Shown here piece after piece: positions 36,587-55,366 of a DNA stretch of 55,366 bases; within the stretch, counting starts at the first letter, position 1; each line of letters begins with the position of its first letter. The notes under the pieces were generated by a model. It saw only the letters and a program-made list of their open reading frames with translations, ran no database searches and had not been told where the DNA came from. The stretch is from Basidiobolus meristosporus CBS 931.73 (lineage: Eukaryota > Basidiobolomycota > Basidiobolomycetes > Basidiobolales > Basidiobolaceae): positions 1 to 55,366 of the forward strand of contig MCFE01000589.1 of the NCBI GenBank assembly GCA_002104905.1. The letters are read 5' to 3'. The position numbers and the translations under genes were made by a program.

Positions 36587-38230
36587 ATGCCGCCATCAAC
36601 CATGCATCACTGCCTCATTTCGCTATTGCTCCTTTGCAGCCTTGGCCAGATCCTGGCCAAGGTGGTTAAATATAACTTCAATGTAACCCTCGAAGACTAC
36701 GCCTCGGACTGCTTCACTCGCCCTAGTGTCCTGATTAACGGCCTCTCGCCGGGTCCGGAAATCCATGTTGAAAGCGGTGATCAGTTGATTGTGAATGTCA
36801 AGAACTCTATGAAAGAGTCCGATTTCGCTTTACATTTCCACGGAATCATCCAACGGGGGACGCCCTTTTCCGACGGGGTTCCGTACCTCACTCAATTCCC
36901 TATCGCTCCTGGTAGCAGCTATCGCTATGTCATCAACATCGGGAAACAAGCTGGAACGTACTTCTACCACGCACACACCGAAGCCTCTGCCTCGACCGCC
37001 TACGGCGCCCTTATTGTTCATGAGAAGGACGAGTCGGAAATCCCATACGATTATGATGAAGAAAAAGTGCTGATGCTGGGCGATGTATTTCATAGGAGTG
37101 ATGAAGATATTGTCAACGGGTTGCTGGGAATCCCAAGCTTCAAACCCATTGGAGATCCCAACTCCTTGACCATCAATGGAAAAACCTTCGCCAAGTGGAA
37201 CTGCACCGAACCTGGAGCCAGATGCGACGATACGTGCGAACGGGAGGTAGTGACAGTCGATCCAGGGAAATCATACAGGTTTCGCATCATCAACTCCTCG
37301 TTAAACCGCCACCTTTCTTTTGCCATTGAGGGCCATCCACTGACAGTGATTGAGGCAGATGGCTCTTATGTGGTTGCCCATGCAGTAAATCACATCCAAA
37401 TCTCTCCAGGACAAAGATACTCGGCGCTGGTCTATGCAAGCCAGCAATCTGGCAACTTCTACATGCGATCAGAGATCATGGAACGATCGCCAGCCCTGAG
37501 CAACGGCTTAGCAATTCTGCATTACTCAGACGCATCCGAACCAAACACCAGGGCGCTAAACCCAGTGGTGAATGCGCCCATCGTGCGTACACTCACGTTT
37601 TTGGAAGAATTTGAGCTTTACAAGCCTTTGCCGGGATCCCCCACCCATAGCGAAGTGGCATTTCCTAGATACTTCGATCGGGAGATTGTGATTGAGATTC
37701 GCGAGACCGAGGAGAGGTCCTACTTGAATGGTAGGTCTTATCAGCTACCCAAAGGAAATATGCTACAAGCGTTGTATACTGGAAAGAGATCAAACAACCC
37801 TGACTACGAGACTGCTATCGCCAGGGGAGGGTATGATGCAGCAAGAGAATCGTACCCCATTCGACATGGCGAGGTGATCCAAGTAGTGCTTCAGAACACT
37901 TACTTGAAGGAAAGCAGGGCATGCATAACCCATCCATTTCATCTGCATGGCCATTCTGTGTATGACCTTGGTGGAGGCTATGGCAAATACAATCCAGAAA
38001 CCGACCGCCTTGCTGCCTCACAGATTGTAGATCCCTTGTACAGAGATGTGGTCAACGTTTATGGCCAGTCGGATACCGGTGACTACGGGATGCCTTGTGG
38101 CTACCGCATCATCAGATTCGTGGCAGACAACCCAGGAGTCTGGCTATTCCATTGTCATATCTCCTCGCATATGATCCAAGGCATGCAAGCAGTCTTTGAG
38201 ACTGGCGTTGAGGAGCTATCATCATACTAA
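36587..38230 (+). CDS. Secreted multicopper oxidase (laccase-like)
   Basis: Copper enzyme that couples one-electron oxidations (phenols, Fe2+ or ascorbate) to reduction of O2 to water. Intronless, 547 aa from 36587, or 542 aa from the better-placed ATG at 36602. A signal peptide (CLISLLLLCSLGQILA) opens the protein. All four copper blocks are present: HFHG (83-86), YHAHTEAS (His128, His130), HPFHLHGHS from 449, and HCHISSHMIQGM (522-533), whose Met533 sits in the type-1 axial position. HFHG replaces the common HWHG. There is no C-terminal membrane anchor, arguing against an Fet3-type ferroxidase. The complete lack of introns contrasts with most neighbours. Confidence 0.92.
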   Translation: MPPSTMHHCLISLLLLCSLGQILAKVVKYNFNVTLEDYASDCFTRPSVLINGLSPGPEIHVESGDQLIVNVKNSMKESDFALHFHGIIQRGTPFSDGVPYLTQFPIAPGSSYRYVINIGKQAGTYFYHAHTEASASTAYGALIVHEKDESEIPYDYDEEKVLMLGDVFHRSDEDIVNGLLGIPSFKPIGDPNSLTINGKTFAKWNCTEPGARCDDTCEREVVTVDPGKSYRFRIINSSLNRHLSFAIEGHPLTVIEADGSYVVAHAVNHIQISPGQRYSALVYASQQSGNFYMRSEIMERSPALSNGLAILHYSDASEPNTRALNPVVNAPIVRTLTFLEEFELYKPLPGSPTHSEVAFPRYFDREIVIEIRETEERSYLNGRSYQLPKGNMLQALYTGKRSNNPDYETAIARGGYDAARESYPIRHGEVIQVVLQNTYLKESRACITHPFHLHGHSVYDLGGGYGKYNPETDRLAASQIVDPLYRDVVNVYGQSDTGDYGMPCGYRIIRFVADNPGVWLFHCHISSHMIQGMQAVFETGVEELSSY

Positions 38231-39171: not shown

Positions 39172-39837
39172 ATGTTTTGTTCTTTCCCGCCGTGCAACAG
39201 GAACGTCACTGCCTTTGGCAAACGTCTGATGAGCACCACGTCCAATGCCACTCACTACCAAATCTTGGGGGTTCACGAAAAAGCCACTAGGAAAGAAATT
39301 CGCAGGAAATATATCAGTCTTTGTAAGCTGCTTCACCCCGATATTGTTGGGAAAAACAAGGACAGCAACGAGCGTTTTCTGCAGATCAAAAATGCCTACT
39401 CTGTCCTGTCGGACCCACAGCAACGAAAAATCTATGATGACGGAAAGGTGTACTACAACAACTTCGTGAATAATACTCACCATTGGGCACGACACGCTAG
39501 AGCTCAGAATCCGCGGTGGGGGTATGATGCCCGTGTATACGGTCAGCAGACTGCTGGCTACGGAGGTGGTAAACCACTCTACGGCAGCAACAATAAAATA
39601 GCAGCCATCATCCTGGTATTAGTTGGCTTTGCGGGAATCGGGCAGTTTCTTCGCTTTGAAAGGGTCAGCAACCGAGTCAAGAATACCAACATGTTACAGC
39701 ATCAAGCCGCGGCTGATGCATACCACAAAGTACGCACCATGGCAGCAGAGTTAGGGCCAGCTCGCAGGATCGAAATGTTGGTTGAAAGTCATCATAAGAC
39801 CAAGGCCAAGTTGGACGAGTTAAGAAAGAATAAATGA
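39172..39837 (+). CDS. J-domain co-chaperone, probably mitochondrial, with one membrane segment
   Basis: Hsp70 co-chaperone. Single exon, 221 aa. The first ~25 residues are basic, Ser/Thr-rich and lack acids (a mitochondrial presequence is likely). The J domain spans about 28-91 (HYQILGVHEKATRKEIRRKY, then the HPD tripeptide, ending QQRKIYD). A Gly/Tyr-rich linker follows, and one hydrophobic segment lies at about 141-160 (IAAIILVLVGFAGIGQFL). A basic, helical C-terminus (SHHKTKAKLDELRKNK) ends the protein. The layout resembles DNAJC30/DNAJC4-type proteins, but orthology is not certain. Confidence 0.85.
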   Translation: MFCSFPPCNRNVTAFGKRLMSTTSNATHYQILGVHEKATRKEIRRKYISLCKLLHPDIVGKNKDSNERFLQIKNAYSVLSDPQQRKIYDDGKVYYNNFVNNTHHWARHARAQNPRWGYDARVYGQQTAGYGGGKPLYGSNNKIAAIILVLVGFAGIGQFLRFERVSNRVKNTNMLQHQAAADAYHKVRTMAAELGPARRIEMLVESHHKTKAKLDELRKNK

Positions 39838-40550
39838 ATATGTAACACCAAGGTAAAGCCCAGATCGTGTACTAGAATCGCTCAACAATCCATTGTTTTC
39901 TTAGGCTAGACCATCAGAAATAAACAAATTGGTGGTAACATAATCAAGAAGAAAAATTGCAAATGGGCCTACACGCAAGATGCGCCGCAGCAGCGCAAGT
40001 TGATTTGTTAGCTTCAGATAGCGGGATAACTTGATATTCTGTTACGTATGGCAGACGTAGGTGTGCCAGATTGTTGGTTCTGTGATGTGCGAGAGTACTC
40101 GGCAAGTCACAAATTAACAACCTTCGGGTAATTGCGAGTATGGTGGGAGAGTGCAGTAATGATATAATAGATTCATAGATATATTCACATTCCATGATGT
40201 CGCAAATCTGCTCTCCTCGACGTTCCCAATCCGGCAATATAGTGTATTCCTCAATATATCAGCATTTACTTCGGTTTCCCATGATTGTATGCCAATTCCA
40301 TTCTAATTTGGTCATTCATCCACCGCCGCTCTATCTAGATACCTTATTAATATTCCAATGAAATTCTTATTTAAGCAAGAAATGGTTTTGCTGGACGAAA
40401 CTCTAAATTCTTCCCGACCAGAGCCTTTGTCTCACGCTTTATACCTTTGCTCAAGCTCCAAATATTAATATTTTACTTACAGTATATTCTACCTTTTCAC
40501 TATCTGCTTACCACTTAAAATCAGTGCATAGACCTGACTTGACTTGGTAT
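39838..40550. other. Intergenic region before the BED-RNR gene
   Basis: AT-rich, no gene recognised. An in-frame GTG at 40524 extends the next reading frame upstream, but 40551 is the first ATG. Confidence 0.45.
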
Positions 40551-43500
40551 ATGACAATATCTTCACCCACTTATATACAGCTTGATACAGAACTGTTCAA
40601 CAGATCCAGTTCACGCTCGACGTCACTCTCACCCTCCCCGGTTGATACACCTACTGTCCATGCCGGCAGACCGCGGAATGAATTGTGGGAGCATTTTTTG
40701 AAGGGAGAAAGACGGTCTACCACAAACAAATATGATGCACGCTGTCGCTACTGTGTTGAGAGATTAGGCTTTGATATTGTCCGGCCGGTACGCGGCGAAA
40801 AGAAATTCATGGTTGCCCATCTTAAAAAATGCGAGAATGCTCCAGAAACCCTAAGAACAAGGTACCGTGTTGGAGCAGCACAAAGTCCAGATATTTTCAA
40901 CAGGACCGAAGAGAAGGCAACAGAGCTGAAGCAGGAGTTGAATAAACCGTCCACGAAGAAGCGGAAAATCAACAGTCTTTTGGATTCCGAATGGATACCC
41001 ACTACTATTACTTCTCACGTCCTCAACGAGTTTTTTAACTCATATACAACTCAGCTGGAACAGAAGCCCCAGGCATGCAAGTTCCAACTAGCAGAAGGCT
41101 TCCTTTCATACTACAAAGATCGGATTCCCCCATTTGGCTTCAATGGACTTGGTGAAATCATTTACCGCAGAACCTATAGTCGACTCCGAAAAGACGGGGC
41201 CCGAGAACAATGGTAATCATGATTATGCCCCAGCAATCAGCCACGATTTCGCTAATTTCTGGTGTTAATTTAGGTGGCAAACCGTCAAACGAGTCGTTGA
41301 TGGGACGTTCAATATGCAAAGGAAATGGTGCGAGCGCATGAACTCTGGCTGGGATGAGGAGAAGGTATTTGCAAACACTGTTGACTGGCTTCTAGTTCGC
41401 CCCAGGTTTTAAGTCCAATTTCAACAAAGGCGCAGCGCTCTGCTCAAAAGATGTATGAGCGTATTTTCCACATGAAATTCCTTCCTCCAGGAAGAGGTAA
41501 TAATGTTATACTATGATTGGTTTCCAGTTATTTTGAGTTTAACAATGAATTCCAGGTCTCTGGGCTATGGGGTCACCGCTAACCGAAGAGCGAGGGATAT
41601 ATGCGTCGTTAAATAATTGTGGATTTGTTAGCACAGATTGTATGTGGACCAAGGGATCAACACCTAGCAAACCGTTTTCCTTTTTGATGGATGCCTCCAT
41701 GCTGGGGTATGTGTTACACTTGAATCCCAAGACTCGATTCGTTACTTATATTCGTATTAGGGTTGGCGTTGGATTCGACACAAAAGGCGCCGCCATTGCC
41801 AAAGACCAACAGATACTCGTAACTGGCCCTAATCTCGCTCTTTCCCCTTCCACCTTCGTTATCCCTGACTGCCGAGAAGGATGGGTCAAGTCCGTAGAGT
41901 TGCTCATCGACAGTTACTTTGATCCTAACATGAGCGTACAAGTATGACGAGTCTACAGTGCACACTGAATCCACTTTAACATAGTCTAACGCAAGCTTTG
42001 ATGCATTAGGAATTCAAATATCATTGCATACGCCCGGAAGGCACCCCTATCAAAGGATTCGGAGGACAGTCCTCCGGGCCACAGTCCCTGATGGAGCTGC
42101 ATCAGCGCATACGCGAAGCTCTTGACAGGAATATTGGCGCCCCGATCTCTGTAACCACGATTGTAGACATAATGAATTTGATTGGAAAATGCGTCGTCAG
42201 TGGAAACGTAAGTGCGACCCTGATACTCTGTGCTTCGGCAGAGTATCTAACCGTTTCCTGGTCAATATTATTTATATTATATTTACAGGTTAGGCGTAGC
42301 GCAGAAATTGCATTTGGTGACCCATTCGATGAGGAGTACATTGATTTGAAAAATTATGAGGTGAATCCGCATCGTTGTGAATATGGATGGACCAGCAATA
42401 ACTCGGTAGGGTACAGCATCTCATGTATCGTTGTTTCGGTATATTAATCCCGATCCTCGTAGGTGTTTGCCAAGATCGGTATGGACTACCACAACATTTG
42501 CAAGCGCGTGGTCTCCAATGGAGAGCCCGGTTTTTCTTGGCTAGAAAACGCAAAGGACTACGGAAGAATGGGCGACCCCATGGTAATGAGAGATATACCA
42601 TCTACATTATCCTGCATATCACTTACCATTCCCATTACCAGACAAAGCGAGACTATCGTGCTCAAGGCGGCAACCCATGCCTTGAACAGACTTTGGAATC
42701 CTTTGAGCTTTGCTGCCTTGTAGAGGTTTTCCCCAATAATCATTCTTCAATGGAGGATTTTCTGGGAACGTTGGAATCGGCATTTCTTTATGCAAAGACA
42801 GTCACTCTTGGAACAACACATTGGCCAGAGAGCAACAGAGTGATGATGAGAAATCGGCGAATCGGGACTGGGTTAAGTGGCATTGCACAATTTATTAGCA
42901 AAAAAGGCACGCCCCAACGTTCTGTACATATTGCGCGCTACAAAGCTGTTAACCATATGACATGACTTGCAGGGATTGAAGAGCTCCGGATATGGTGTGA
43001 GAGTGGATATAAGCATCTTTCAGAAGTGGATAAGCAGTAAGTATCCATACATCGGTGGTGCATTCTATTAACAACCATACTAAATTGCTATCTTGTTTTA
43101 GGCTGTGTGAATGGTTGTGCATCCCCCAATCAATCAAGATTAGCACAGTTAAACCGAGTGGAACTGTATCTCTTCTAGCCGGAGGTACGTTATTAACTTT
43201 CTTTACATATCTCAATTCCATGAACCTCATCCTCATTCATGGTTGTAGCGACCCCTGGATTACATTATCCAGAAAGTAGATTTTGTATTCGTCGTGTGCG
43301 CCTGTCTAAACTGTCTGAAATGGTAGACCCTTTCAGAGAGGCGGGATACAGAATAGAACCTGACGTTGGTAAGTATATATAATCGACACGCTCCAACTTT
43401 CTAATATACAAGTCTAATCCTTACTCAAATTGCGATCTTGAAGTCGATCCCAATACACTGGTAATAGAAATTCCTATTGATCATGGTGAAGGAGTGAGAT

Positions 43501-43988
43501 CTCTAGCCGAAGTAACAATGTGGGAGCAACTCTCCTTGGCAGCCTTTATGCAGAAATATTGGTCCGATAACCAGGTCTCATGCACCATCACATTCGATCC
43601 TGAGTCTGAGGGGCCTCAACTGAAGCATGCGCTTAATTTCTTTCAGTATCAATTGAAAGGAGTTTCATTCTTGCCCAGGATCGCGATGGGCGCTTATTCC
43701 CAGATGCCGTACGAAGCCATATCTGAAATGAAGTATTATCAACTAACTTCAAGTATAACCAGACCAGGTCCAAAAAGTCCCAGTTTGACACGCCTGTTAC
43801 TAAATCCACAGTGCTTGACTGCACCTGATCTTCGGAATGTCGAAGGAGATACCACTGTCGACCCAGAAATCGAGAGGTTTTGTGATTGGAGTCCATACAT
43901 GCTCGAAACTACCTGTCCTGGCACAGGGTTGGTAATGAATGTCAACGGGCTTGAAGAACATAGATTACCCACAAATACTAGATTTTAG
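40551..43988 (+). CDS. BED zinc finger fused to adenosylcobalamin-dependent (class II) ribonucleotide reductase
   Basis: Monomeric class II RNR: makes deoxyribonucleotides with a thiyl radical started by B12 coenzyme. Exons: 40551-41212, 41274-41364, 41430-41496, 41556-41706, 41761-41941, 42010-42207, 42289-42405, 42463-42582, 42642-42918, 42973-43036, 43102-43184, 43249-43368 and 43444-43988; 891 aa. Residues 38-100 are a BED-type finger (C65-x2-C68, H90-x3-C94), followed by KKRK (136-139), a possible nuclear signal. RNR sequence starts near 178 (YRRTYSRLRKDG, VKRVVDGTF). Active-site residues match Lactobacillus leichmannii RTPR: Cys295 (NNCGFV, C119), N540-P-C542-L-E544 (N406/C408/E410) and Cys553 (C419 at the same 11-residue spacing). 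VKPSGTVSLLAG is conserved. The C-terminal cysteines (857, 868) are spaced C-x10-C, not C-x4-C. Finger and RNR start share exon 1. Confidence 0.93.
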
Positions 43989-48640: not shown

Positions 48641-50286
48641 TCAGCAAGCGCCGAGATCAGTCCAAACATTTTGACTGTTGCTGCCAGGAGTATCATTCTG
48701 AGTCCACCATTTGGCTTGCCAAAGGTGCCCCTTATACACAACCTTTTGTGCTCCATTGTACGCGGTAGCTGCACTCCAATCAGCAACACCGCCACAAATT
48801 CCGGGAGCTGAGGTGGGACTAGGTGACCCAGAAGTGGAGGCAATGCTGGAGGTAGCAGATGGGACAGTAGAGGTCTTGCTGGTGACGGTCGTAGTAGGGC
48901 GTACGGTGGATGTGGGTACTGGTGGAACGCTAGGTGATGGGCATCCTGAACCGGTGCAGCGGACTCCTTGCAGAACATTGAGAAGCTCATCGTTGGAGTC
49001 ATGACTCATATCCCAGTACATCACACCACGAAGACCAGATTGCCTAGTGTAGTCAACCTTGATCTTGAGAGATTGAGGATCATCATAGGAAATGAATCGC
49101 TTGTCACTGGCTCTGAACAACCAGGGAGTCTGAGTGGTGTTGTCCCAGTAACGACTCCAACCACTGGCGGGAGTATTGGGGCCAGATTGGAGAATATCGC
49201 TGCGGATGGACTTCCACTTCCAGATGCCAGAGTAGAATGTCCCTTCGTTACAGAAGGAGTTGGGCTCATTGGCATCATACGAGTCACCCTTTGGTGTCAC
49301 ACTATCCTTCGCAGCATACATATTCCCAGGACTGGAGTTCATATCCACAGTGGCGGTCAGTGAACGACCATAGAACGCCATTCCCATGACAAGCTTGTTG
49401 GCTGGCCATTTGGCTCCGAGCCAATCATTGACAGCTTGGCGGAAAGAGTAGGCATCCCCACCCTTCGCGGTATCATAATCAAATGGAGCATTAGGCCCAG
49501 TGGTGGCTGACCATGAGCCCATGATGTCGTATGCCATGACATTGATGTAGTCAAAGTACTGAGCATAAGCGGACACATCGGCCATTGGCTTACCATCCAC
49601 ACCATCGAATGGTTGAACTCTCACGGCAGCGGTCAATAGCTTGTGTTCATTGGGGAATTCCGCATCAAGAGCAGCTCTGAGCTCTTTGAGAAGAATGAGG
49701 TAGTTGGCACTGTCGTTCTTGTCAACGACGTTACAGATAGCTGCACTTCTACCAGGATACTCCCAATCGATGTCAATTCCATCAAGATCCCAGCCATCTG
49801 GGTTCTCATCGTATTCGGGTTTTGTGTTTTTGCGCACGAAGACAAGTGCATTGTTGATAAACTTCTTACGCAATGCTGCATCTCGTACAATGGTGGAGAA
49901 TGTCTGACTGCCAGTCCAGCCGCCCAATGACATCAGTGTCTTGACACCTTTTGCACTGGCAAGCTGCTTCAGCTTGCGGATTCTAGTGCCATCGTAATAC
50001 CTATCGATGGTGATGGTAGTTGGATCACCAGTCTTTGTAGTCAATACACCAAAGCCTTGAGGGATAATTAGCAAAGCTGTCCCGATGAATCGATTATGGG
50101 TGAGATTCACGAATACTGACCGTAGTTGATATGGGTGACTTTGTCCAAGCTCAGCTGTTCAGGTTCAACTTTGCCCCATGGAACGTAGTAGCCTACAACC
50201 ACTTTATCATCAGCCGCCAAACTCTCTAAAGGAGCAAAAAGTATAGCAGCAGAGATTGTTGAGATTAGGAGAATATTAAGCTTCAT
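48641..50286 (-). CDS. Secreted GH18 chitinase with C-terminal CBM5/12 chitin-binding module
   Basis: Retaining endo- or exochitinase acting on cell-wall or environmental chitin. Exons 50286-50121 and 50055-48641 give 526 aa. A signal peptide (LNILLISTISAAILFA) precedes the catalytic TIM barrel. KTLMSLGGW is the conserved SxGG block and DGIDIDWE (147-154) the catalytic DxxDxDxE with acid/base Glu154. NVMAYDIMGSW and GVMYWDMSHD are further GH18 signatures. A Ser/Thr/Pro linker (about 410-475) leads to a C-terminal CBM5/12-like module (WSAATAYNGAQKVVYKG, then LWQAKWWTQNDTPGS). TATATAA (50339-50333) lies 47 bp upstream. This modular design is bacterial-like and is also common in early-diverging fungi. 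Confidence 0.95.
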
Positions 50287-51714: not shown

Positions 51715-53596
51715 GAGAATATCACTCAGGGAAGTGGCAATCACCTTAGGGGAGGGAAAGTCACCAAGCTGGTGAAGTTGTAATTTGCTTTTAAGCACTA
51801 ATCTAAGTACAAATAAAGGAGCCAATTGAGAGGTAGGGTTAGGGGGGAGACAGTCACCAACAGGTGAAATCTTTACTTCAGTTGGAATAAAGAAGCCAGC
51901 GCTACTGTTGTAGCTTTGATACAAGAGTGTGTAGCTGAGGGGAATCTGTAGGTAAGTTAATAACAAGTGATGATAGTTCTTCAGTGCTAAAGACACTGTT
52001 CAGTGGGTAGCAAGAGGGGCAAGAATGATATGTGAACAACATTAATGAGGGGAATATGATATGGATTGATATTCATCATGAAGGGAGTGTGCTGCTTCAG
52101 ATACTGCTGCCAAAGGTCTGTCAAGTACTTCAGGTAGGCTGGCTTGGGGTTTTCTGACTGCAGAATATAATGAGAAAACTTCTTGACATCAGAATCTCCA
52201 AGTATTGTTCTGCAGCTGGAGCCAGGTGTAGTGTGGTGTGTACTCTTCCAGACCTTGATCAATGGGCTGTTGCAGTGGTGAAATCTGAGATATAATCTGG
52301 TTCTAAGATAGAGAAGTCTGATCTTATAGGGCATAAGTCTGAAAGCACCAAGAAAAGCATGTCTGTAGGGGCATTAAGGCAGATGAGTCACCAAGGAGGC
52401 AATACACCAGACTGCAAACCTGTCAAGCTTAGTGCAGTCTCTAGAAGTAAGAGAGAAAAGTGGTAAGCCAAATCCAGGACAGGGAAGACAAACTGCTTGA
52501 GTAGAAGGAGGCAGCTGGGAGCTGAAGTTGTAGGAGGAGTAACAGCCAGTAGCTTGTGGAGTGCCTGTCTTGCCAGGATAATTCTCTTCTTCAGGTGTGC
52601 TCCAGAGTCTAGTCCAGTAGGAAGGAAAGGAAAGCCAAGATATGTAGCAGAAACCTTAGCAGGTTGAGAGCAGTTCTCCAAGTTCATAGGACAACCCAAA
52701 GAAACTATCTTTGCAATGGAGAGCTGAAGATTGTTCTTCTGCAGATACTGGTGGATGGTCTGGGAATCTTGCTGCACATTGGAGGAGGATATTCTGATGT
52801 CATCAGCAAAGAGTGTAACCAGGCAGTCAGCTGAGAGTCTTGGGAAGTCATTCAGGAAGATGACAAACAGTATAGGACCATGCAGAGAACCTTGAACCAC
52901 ACCATTAGGAGCTGAGAACACAGCTGATTGCTCACTTGGGTGCAGAATTCTTGCTTGTGGATCCAGTAACAGATACCTGACAAGGAGGGTGTGAGATGTA
53001 CAGGAGAAGCATTGCAACTTGGACTAAAGCAGATTTCTGCCACTGAATCACAGGCCTCAGAAATATCAAACAGAACAGTGGGATACTTGCACTGGAGAAG
53101 TGAACTTGACCAAGAATGGCTGCATATTCCAAGGAGAGGCCAGGAACAAAGCCAAACTGTGCAGGGTGAAACCTGAGGGAGTCAGAGTAGAGCTCCTGAG
53201 TAATCAAAAGTTCAAACACCTTTCTGCAGGTGGGCAGCAGGGATATTGGCCTGTAGGAGCTAGGATTCTGGTGCTTTCATTTACCCTTGCACAGTGGTGG
53301 AACATTGGCAAAGGACCATTCCTCAGGTGTAGAAAGCTGGGCTGAGCATTGTCGAAACAGTGGAAGCAGAAGAGCAAACATAGCCTTTGTTCTAATCTTC
53401 AGAAGCTCATAGGAGATTGTGTCCACACCTATGGCAGCAGAGTTGGGAAGCCTCTTGAGCACATTACGGATTCTCTCTTGATCAAGTGCTAGTGGTATTA
53501 GCAGAGTCTTGAAGTCAAGATGAAAGCCAGGGGTTGAATACCGCTTTGTAGAGAAGAAAATGTTAGCCAGCTGTTCTGTTGACGGTAACTTCCTGG
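51715..53596 (-). mobile_element. Non-LTR retrotransposon, 5'-truncated copy A
   Basis: Reverse-transcriptase half of a LINE-like element. Reading down the minus strand from 53596: RKLPSTEQLANIFFSTKRY, then LPNSAAIGVDTISYELLK (RT motif 1-2 region), the palm motif GVVQGSLHGPILFVIFLND, and the catalytic box FADDI (a YADD variant) near 52800. Translation needs several frame changes (for example between FPVLDLAYH and the next frame near 52480), so the copy is dead. The 3' end contains a ~90-bp unit twice (about 51750-51840 and 51842-51935), each with an AATAAAG-AAGCCA-type segment. It is cut at ~53597 by the 3' end of copy B. Confidence 0.85.
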
Positions 53597-55366
53597 GGAG
53601 GGAAAGTAACTAAGTTGGTGAAATCTTTATTTGAGTCATGAACTAGTCTAAGGACAAATAAAGAAGCCAATTAAGAAGTCTAGAACCTCTCTAATAGGTA
53701 ATCTAATTTATACTTTGTTTCATCTCTGATGTTTGCTTCTATAAAGTAAAGCTTGTTAGGGGTAAATATAAAATTCAAGGGTTTTGGGGGAAGGGGGGGG
53801 AGACAGTCACCAACAGGTGAAATCTTTATTTCAGTTGAAACAAAGAAGCCAGCGCTACTGTTGTAGCTTTGATACAAGAGTGTGTAGCTGAGGGGAATTT
53901 GTAGGTAAGTTAATAAGAAGTGATGATAGTTCTTCAGTGCTCAAGACACTGTTCAGTGGGAAGGGGGGTAGCAAGAGAGGTAAGAATGACTTGTGAACAA
54001 CATTAATGAGGGGAATGTGATAAGGATTGATATTCATCATAAAGGGAGTGTGCTGCTGCAGATATTGCTGCCAAAGGTCTGTCAAGTACTTCAGGTAGGC
54101 CAGCTTGGGTTTTTCTGACTGCAGAATATAGTGAGCAAACTTCTTGACTTCAGGATCTCAAGTATAGTTCTCCAGCAGGAGCCAGGTGTTGTGTGGTGTG
54201 TTCTCTTCCAGGCCTTAATCAGTGGGTTGTTGCAGTTGTGAAGTCTGAGGTATAATCTGGTTCTAAGGTAGAGAAGTCTGACCTTATAGGGCATAAACCC
54301 AAAAGCACCAAGAATAGCATCTCTATAGGTGCATTCAGGCAAATGAGGCACCAGGGAGGTAATGCACCATACTGCAAACTTGTCAAGCTTAGTGCAGTCT
54401 CTAGAAGTAAGAGAGAGAAGTGGTAAGCCAAATTCCAGGACAGGGAAAACAAACTGCTTGAGTAGAAGGAGGCAGCTGGGAGCTGAAGTTGCAGGAGGGG
54501 TAACAGCCAGTAGCTTGTGGAGTGCCTGTCTTGCCAGGATAATTCTCTTCTTCAGGTGTGCTCCAGAGTCTAGTCCAGTAGGAAGGAAAGGAAAGCCAAG
54601 ATATGTAGCAGAGACCTGAGCAGGTAGAGTGGAGTTCTCCAAGTTGATTGGAGAGCCCAAAGGTACTGTCTTTGCAATGGAAAGCTGGAGATTATTCTTC
54701 TGCAGATACTGGTGGATGGTCTGGGAGTCTTGCTGCACATTGGAGGAGGATATTCTGATGTCATCAGCAAAGAGAGTAACCAGGCAGTCAGCTGAGAGTC
54801 TTGGGAAATCATTCAGGAAGATGGCAAACAGTATAGGACCAAGCACAGAGCCTTGAACCACTCCATTAGGAACTGAGAACACAGCTGATTGCTCACTTGG
54901 GTGCAGAATTCTTGCTTGTGGATCCAGAAACAGAGACCTGACAAGGAGGGTGAGAGAGGTACTGGAGAAGCATTGCAACTTGGACCAAAGCAGATTTCTG
55001 TCAACTGAATCAAAGGCCTTAGTAATATCAAACAGAACAGAGGGATACTTGCACTGGAGAGAGTGATCTTGGCTAAGTATGACTGCATATTCCAAGGAGA
55101 GGCCAGGAACAAAGCCAAACTGTGCAGGATGAAACTTGAGGGAGTCAGAGTAGAGCTCCTGAGCAAGCAGAAGCTCAAACACCTTTCTGCAGGTGGGCAG
55201 CAGAGATATTGGCCTGTAGGAGCTAGGATCCAGGTGCTTTCCTTTACCCTTGTACAGTGGACAGAACATTTGCAAAGGATCATTCCTCAGGAGTAGAAAG
55301 CTGGGCTGAGCATTGCTGAAACAGTGGAAGCAGAAGTGCAGACATGGCCTTGGTACTAGTCTTCAG
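53597..55366 (-). mobile_element. Non-LTR retrotransposon, copy B, running off the window
   Basis: Same family and orientation as copy A, roughly nine bases in ten identical by eye. The main frame 55275-54091 encodes SYRPISLLPTCRKVFE, FDITKAFDSVDR, NGVVQGSVLGPILFAIFLND and FADDI, a complete RT palm. A stop replaces the Trp codon of STPEEW upstream of the frame (near 55280), and a one-base shift near 54160 puts the C-terminal part (WQQYLQQHTPFMMNINPYHI at 54060) in another frame. No endonuclease domain lies inside the window. The 3' tail (53600-53870) carries the repeated unit seen in copy A, again twice. Confidence 0.88.

Follow-up and report, generated by a model that had tools for sequence, protein, structure and literature searches.

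Why should a gene for a ribonucleotide reductase (RNR) begin with a finger of the DNA-binding type? The question is raised by the region 40551..43988 (plus strand) of a 55,366-nucleotide stretch of the Basidiobolus meristosporus CBS 931.73 genome (contig MCFE01000589.1, positions 1 to 55,366; this whole stretch is called the window), for which a preliminary description had proposed a BED-type zinc finger fused to a monomeric, B12-dependent class II RNR. That this fusion is encoded and has been retained in Basidiobolus is very probable (roughly 0.93 by our own estimate). A DNA-binding-type finger on an RNR, if true, would physically tie the synthesis or sensing of deoxynucleoside triphosphates (dNTPs) to the genome.

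A finger and a ribonucleotide reductase in one reading frame

Exon 1 (40551-41212) starts with the ATG at 40551 and contains no stop codon up to the intron donor at 41213, as against 7 and 11 stops in its two other frames. This exon alone encodes a CxxC/HxxxC finger of the BED type, a KKRK basic patch and, behind them, the first part of a monomeric class II RNR. The finger, delimited by alignments, covers residues 39-94 (40665..40832, plus strand) and contains GRPRNELWEHF, C65xxC68 and H90xxxC94, whereas the KKRK patch, which resembles the consensus of a nuclear signal, occupies residues 136-139 (40956..40967, plus strand). The RNR part comprises residues 177-887 (41079..43988, plus strand): RNR_Alpha (PF17975) matches residues 180-221 of exon 1 with an E-value of 2.1e-10, and the entire 887-aa protein matches the RTPR of L. 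leichmannii (1L1L; E = 2.4e-94) over residues 180-614 and 628-812. The uninterrupted frame, the position of the finger, the patch and the junction with the RNR N-terminus were found as the preliminary description had stated them.

The coding region (40551..43988, plus strand) was modelled by spliced alignment to the protein of the paralogue C358, a gene with few introns, and was then joined and translated. It consists of 13 exons (40551-41212, 41274-41364, 41430-41496, 41556-41706, 41761-41941, 42010-42207, 42289-42405, 42463-42582, 42642-42906, 42973-43036, 43102-43184, 43249-43368 and 43444-43988), and the joined frame has no internal stop and ends at 43988. A false intron placed by the aligner in the last exon was removed by hand, the exon being merged because this stretch is conserved between the window and the second copy described below. 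Exon 9 is followed by a GC donor (42907-42908, plus strand); as read from the sequence, a GT alternative 12 bases downstream (42919-42920) would keep the frame and add four residues.

By homology of its core, the protein is a monomeric B12-dependent class II RNR, and adenosylcobalamin-dependent reduction is predicted for it. Like RTPR and the early-fungal relatives, it has RNR_Alpha and the insertion domain, aligns over residues 180-812 and keeps the active-site residues. C295 in LNNC (residues 292-295; 41609..41620, plus strand) aligns with RTPR C119, and C542, E544 and C553 in NPCLEQTLESFELC (residues 540-553; 42672..42713, plus strand) align with RTPR C408, E410 and C419, as N540 does with N406; these five residues of RTPR belong to its active site. 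Unlike the RTPR-type enzymes, however, the finger-RNR begins with about 175 additional residues, which make up the finger and linker, and has an altered C-terminal tail. It also has LNNCGF and FGGQ[S][SC]G where the relatives compared have LNNCAF and FGG[VL][ST]SG (eight retrieved proteins and the window compared).

The tail difference was examined by comparison of retrieved proteins (the best 120 of 7998 scored homologues, plus P0001). The usual CxxxxC redox pair of class II RNRs is replaced by C853-x10-C864 (43881..43916, plus strand), and the same Cx10C spacing is present in the second B. meristosporus copy (C374; protein P0002) and in P0003 of B. ranarum. The pattern [FYH]CxxxxC occurs in the last 120 residues of 113 of the 121 retrieved proteins; the eight others are P0001, P0005, P0017 and P0118, which are fragmentary or end too early, P0060 (Cx4C preceded by a different letter), P0022 (Cx5C), and P0002 and P0003 themselves. 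Because its tail departs from the usual form, we class the protein, by the homology of its core, as a variant class II RNR. It is 59-72% identical to RNRs of other fungi. The finger profile was significant only in the window and P0002, both of which had helped to build it, and was not significant in the other 120 retrieved proteins (next E-value, 0.38).

A phylogenetic tree was built from 28 rows, namely, the window and 27 proteins selected from the 121 retrieved, C374 being represented by its genome model; the finger part was cut from the window and C374, and the Amoeboaphelidium row was dropped for its insert. The window, C374 and two B. ranarum proteins were joined at 100/100 on a stem of 0.33, and this clade was linked to unfused B. 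meristosporus copies by a fork of 94/95, which is under the starred threshold. Separately, the class II RNR P0033 of Amoeboaphelidium occidentale (1059 aa) contains an intein-like insert (PF14890).

The finger at a second locus and on other enzymes

Is the finger maintained, or does it merely happen to stand in front of the enzyme? The B. meristosporus genome (89.0 Mb in 1311 contigs) contains a second finger-RNR gene, C374 (L008), which encodes 879 aa with a part order and exon pattern identical to those of the window and 59% identity over residues 8-221, and in which the patch recurs as TKKRK. The NCBI model of this copy (P0002, B. meristosporus CBS 931.73; RNR_Alpha E = 3.4e-41) starts ahead of the finger. 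A chance open frame was rejected in view of this second copy together with the stop-free exon 1.

Because dS by the NG86 method was saturated for all segments except the linker, dN alone was used to compare the two copies. Identity is 80% in the finger (56 codons; dN = 0.112) and 84% in the RNR part (672 codons; dN = 0.098), whereas it is 35% in the linker between them (residues 107-178; 69 codons; dN = 0.644). The difference between finger and linker is significant (45/56 versus 24/69 by counts derived from rounded fractions; Fisher p = 3e-7). As judged from the sequences, it is more than chance that the layout recurs at a second locus, where few residues of the finger have been replaced. The predicted structure of the 879-aa protein has a mean pLDDT of 63, and below 50 over residues 1-169, and nothing was drawn from it.

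Some or most transcripts might nevertheless lack the finger, through an upstream leader or an internal splice that yields an ordinary RNR, so that the finger would be rarely used. Consistent with this, both annotated B. ranarum RNR models (P0003 and P0005) start at a methionine in exon 3. However, conserved RNR_Alpha sequence is missing from these models, which therefore look truncated, and the finger is conserved at the protein level. Moreover, after the methionine within the finger (residue 87 in the window and 86 in C374) the next one is at 235 and 231, respectively, whereas the RNR core motif begins ahead of it, at 195 and 191. Neither copy thus has a methionine between finger and RNR core, so that translation begun after the finger would truncate the enzyme, barring a leader exon, and we regard predominantly finger-less expression as improbable. 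The B. ranarum RNR models, beginning at an internal methionine, neither confirm nor deny a finger in that species.

The same finger was also recognized on a second kind of enzyme. Searches of the genome with the C374 finger (E-value up to 10) gave C374, the window, C512, C475 and C578 (E = 0.0056); those with the C475 finger gave C475, C512, the window and C374; and those with the C578 finger gave C578, the window (1.6e-4), C374 (0.0015), C512 (0.14) and C715 (1.8). Apart from the RNR, cytidine deaminase and NIF3 loci and the weak C715 match, no further carriers emerged from these searches, which score the best candidates only, so that more distant fingers could escape them. A DNA search for the pattern GRPRxx-x-W-x-HF in the 89 Mb gave four places (C374, C475, C512 and C856), and its reversed control gave none.

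Two of these loci, C475 (L010, C475:17000-26900, minus strand) and C512 (L013, C512:75000-84900, plus strand), are genes for finger-cytidine deaminases. In their splice models, which are provisional where the finger exon meets the linker, the finger is followed by a cytidine deaminase that has CAE and PCG..C, and the deaminase domain of C475 scores 63.4 bits with PF00383. Between C475 and C512 the finger is 87% identical (69 codons, dN = 0.092) and the deaminase 78% (128 codons, dN = 0.130). In the NCBI model of C475 (P0122, 340 aa), introns are read as coding sequence and the CAE stretch is lost, whereas P0123 of B. ranarum keeps CAE and unites finger and deaminase in one annotated protein of 239 aa (two proteins were found among four candidates); it matches C475 at 52/57 positions in the finger, 22/44 in the linker and 117/130 in the deaminase. 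Elsewhere in the genome, four partial PF00383 matches on both strands lie within 6 kb (G000:C1009:23603-29264), perhaps as a local cluster.

A more distant finger is encoded at C578:51372-51545 (L038, C578:46600-56500, minus strand) and is continuous, in one frame, with the beginning of a NIF3/DUF34 domain; PF01784 scores 12.6 bits on the finger exon, which is sub-threshold, and 51.9 bits further along, which is over the cut-off. With the finger alignment, 26 pattern-matched stretches in a viral contig collection and 48 in a genome contig collection yielded no confirmed case, and a search of the protein database with exon 1 gave, from 97 candidates, the single protein P0001, which lacks the finger; these collections contain few fungi or different gene models, and absence from them says little.

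The gene model itself might still be an artefact, either of two neighbouring genes or of a chance open frame, given that it was computed here and that its exon 9 has a GC donor. Against this, finger and RNR start share one stop-free exon in both copies, and P0002 and P0123 are each a single annotated protein; we hold an artefact to be extremely improbable. A wrong joining of two genes was rejected in view of these two annotated proteins and of the lack of a methionine between the parts. In short, the finger is no stray transposase start but a module that has been kept on metabolic enzymes. Neither its sharing among enzymes nor the changed C-terminal tail of the RNR had been noted in the preliminary description.

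Affinity and possible role of the finger

How firmly can the finger be called BED-type, as it was in the preliminary description? BED fingers, which are typical of hAT-type transposases, have the signature C-x2-C ... H-x3-5-[HC] preceded by an aromatic W..HF. In the window finger this corresponds to C65, C68, H90 and C94 with W46..HF, the W being replaced by S in C578. Pfam zf-BED (PF02892) gave 15.1 bits (E = 0.023) for the window, 15.7 for C374, 12.3 for C475 and 15.2 for P0123, all under the cut-off of 20.6, and no match for the finger proteins C578 and P0122; the finger is therefore called BED-type here and not a member of Pfam zf-BED. A comparison by hhalign of the finger profile (5 rows) with two zf-BED fingers of the same genome, C458 and C791 (2 rows), gave 96.5%. 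These two were the only places in the genome with zf-BED at E-values up to 0.001, and in the C791 frame zf-BED is the sole Pfam match. Foldseek with a model of the finger returned eight matches at E-values up to 10 and none at 0.001, and ZBED1 and ZBED3 top the list of realigned structures, at low Z. The BED reading thus stands on the profile comparison and weak structural matches and falls short by the Pfam score, and the finger would presumably bind zinc and DNA. It resembles the BED fingers of ZBED proteins and hAT-type transposases in W..HF, CxxC and HxxxC, and differs from PF02892 in a longer stretch between CxxC and HxxxC, an invariant GRPR in front and the lack of a transposase behind, where the RNR follows in the same exon.

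Could the finger then be a functionless relic of an old transposase capture? Its hhalign match is to C458 and C791, which look hAT-like. However, no inverted repeats of at least 14 bases were found in 39840-41300. Further, finger and enzyme are conserved to about the same degree despite the drift of the linker, and the finger exceeds the enzyme in conservation in the deaminases and occurs on three kinds of enzyme. A functionless relic is accordingly most improbable, and the preliminary idea of a captured transposase start, if meant as an inert or recent one, is disfavoured. Recent transposon insertion was rejected in view of the finger conservation and the lack of repeats of that length in that interval. 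An old origin of the finger from a transposase is possible.

All three enzymes also exist without the finger in B. meristosporus. Unfused class II RNR genes are C716, C358 and C304 (annotated as P0004 for C716 and P0009 for C304), of which C358 and C304 are nearly identical; an unfused deaminase, C480, starts with MSNIQLTKEQ, and an unfused NIF3, C902 (L071), with MSLLSRV. None of these loci appeared among the matches listed in the finger searches. The small subunit of class I RNR has three matching places in the genome. Given these paralogues, the fused genes look like extra, specialised copies. With regard to the unfused RNRs themselves, the frame ahead of the NCBI start in C716 (L009, C716:51000-60900) resembles a mitochondrial signal by eye, and C358 (L011) and C304 (L012) have similar flanks, the C304 contig, of only 11.6 kb, perhaps representing another haplotype or a duplication of recent date.

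What, then, could the finger do? We see about an even chance that it tethers the enzyme to DNA. The basic patch would bring the finger-RNR into the nucleus, where the finger would bind either DNA itself or some partner in chromatin, and there the enzyme core would act. Under this proposal, the Basidiobolus lineage would have placed the finger module on several metabolic enzymes, each a specialised copy taken to DNA, while the unfused paralogues and class I RNR would cover housekeeping, including dNTP synthesis. Expression as a single protein, zinc and DNA binding, nuclear location and a regulatory role are what we infer for the finger-RNR.

Class II RNRs of early fungi are already known (PMC8085122), and the main text of that paper contains neither 'fusion', 'domain architecture' nor Basidiobolus, with 'zinc' in its reference list only. 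A class II RNR with an added zinc-type domain has a parallel in the NrdJd enzymes, in which a C-terminal, cysteine-rich zinc-binding domain serves in electron transfer and oligomerisation (PMC5704485). That domain is C-terminal with six cysteines, whereas the domain of the finger-RNR is an N-terminal finger common to other enzymes; the six-cysteine array is absent from the window protein, whose 60-residue tail has three cysteines (C830 region, C853 and C864).

The finger may be a protein-protein or oligomerisation module that docks the enzymes on a common partner or, like the zinc domain of NrdJd, aids electron delivery to the RNR in place of the lost CxxxxC. Such a role would fit the function of the zinc domain in those class II RNRs (PMC5704485), the loss of the usual tail spacing in the finger clade and the sub-threshold zf-BED score. 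Cytidine deaminases, however, carry the same finger and need no electron delivery, and KKRK is kept in both RNR copies within a linker that is otherwise 35% identical. We consider this explanation less likely than a DNA tether.

If the finger does tether the RNR to DNA, for what purpose? The preliminary description had thought of dNTP synthesis placed at chromatin, a placement that would fit the findings. The change to Cx10C should affect reduction by thioredoxin, given what the tail does in such enzymes (PMC5704485). Because of this altered redox tail, and because housekeeping would fall to the unfused and class I genes, a sensing role, as a DNA-bound, nucleotide-sensing regulator, is slightly favoured over a bulk, local supply of dNTPs at chromatin. 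More specifically, and this remains doubtful, the module might turn nucleotide enzymes into DNA-bound sensors, the RNR core reading the dNTP and B12 state and the deaminase the pyrimidine nucleosides, with shared target genes reached through related fingers. This would be a functional eukaryotic counterpart of NrdR, the bacterial repressor of RNR genes, in which a zinc ribbon is joined to an ATP-cone, that is, a zinc DNA-binding part to an RNR-related nucleotide-sensing part. The likeness is in working principle at most, and no membership is claimed; unlike the bacterial zinc ribbon plus ATP-cone protein, the finger-RNR carries the RNR catalytic core. A regulatory role in the nucleus has also been proposed for the PAPS reductase of Tuber, a fungal metabolic enzyme that differs from RNR and is reported to have transcription-factor activity (PMC4848566).

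Should the fingers of the RNR, deaminase and NIF3 proteins recognize common DNA sites, the three enzymes would belong to one regulatory circuit; should they instead have a protein partner in common, they would mark a new docking module. The link would also provide a context for NIF3/DUF34, a poorly understood family, and the findings show that a finger module has spread across metabolic enzymes in an early fungal lineage. In the literature searched, which lacks most subscription papers, no report of a BED-type finger on an RNR or a cytidine deaminase was found. The finger on an RNR, together with its close relatives on other metabolic enzymes of this fungus, hints at an undescribed route by which enzymes are taken to DNA.

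Neighbouring genes

No tRNA and no Rfam match were found within the window. By eye, a DnaJ-type protein is encoded just upstream of the finger-RNR gene (39172-39837, plus strand), a multicopper oxidase at 36587-38230 (plus strand) and a chitinase at 48641-50110 (minus strand), all three being ordinary neighbours. Two related frames on the minus strand, 52388-53017 and 54091-55275, look like non-LTR (non-long terminal repeat) reverse transcriptase, again by eye.
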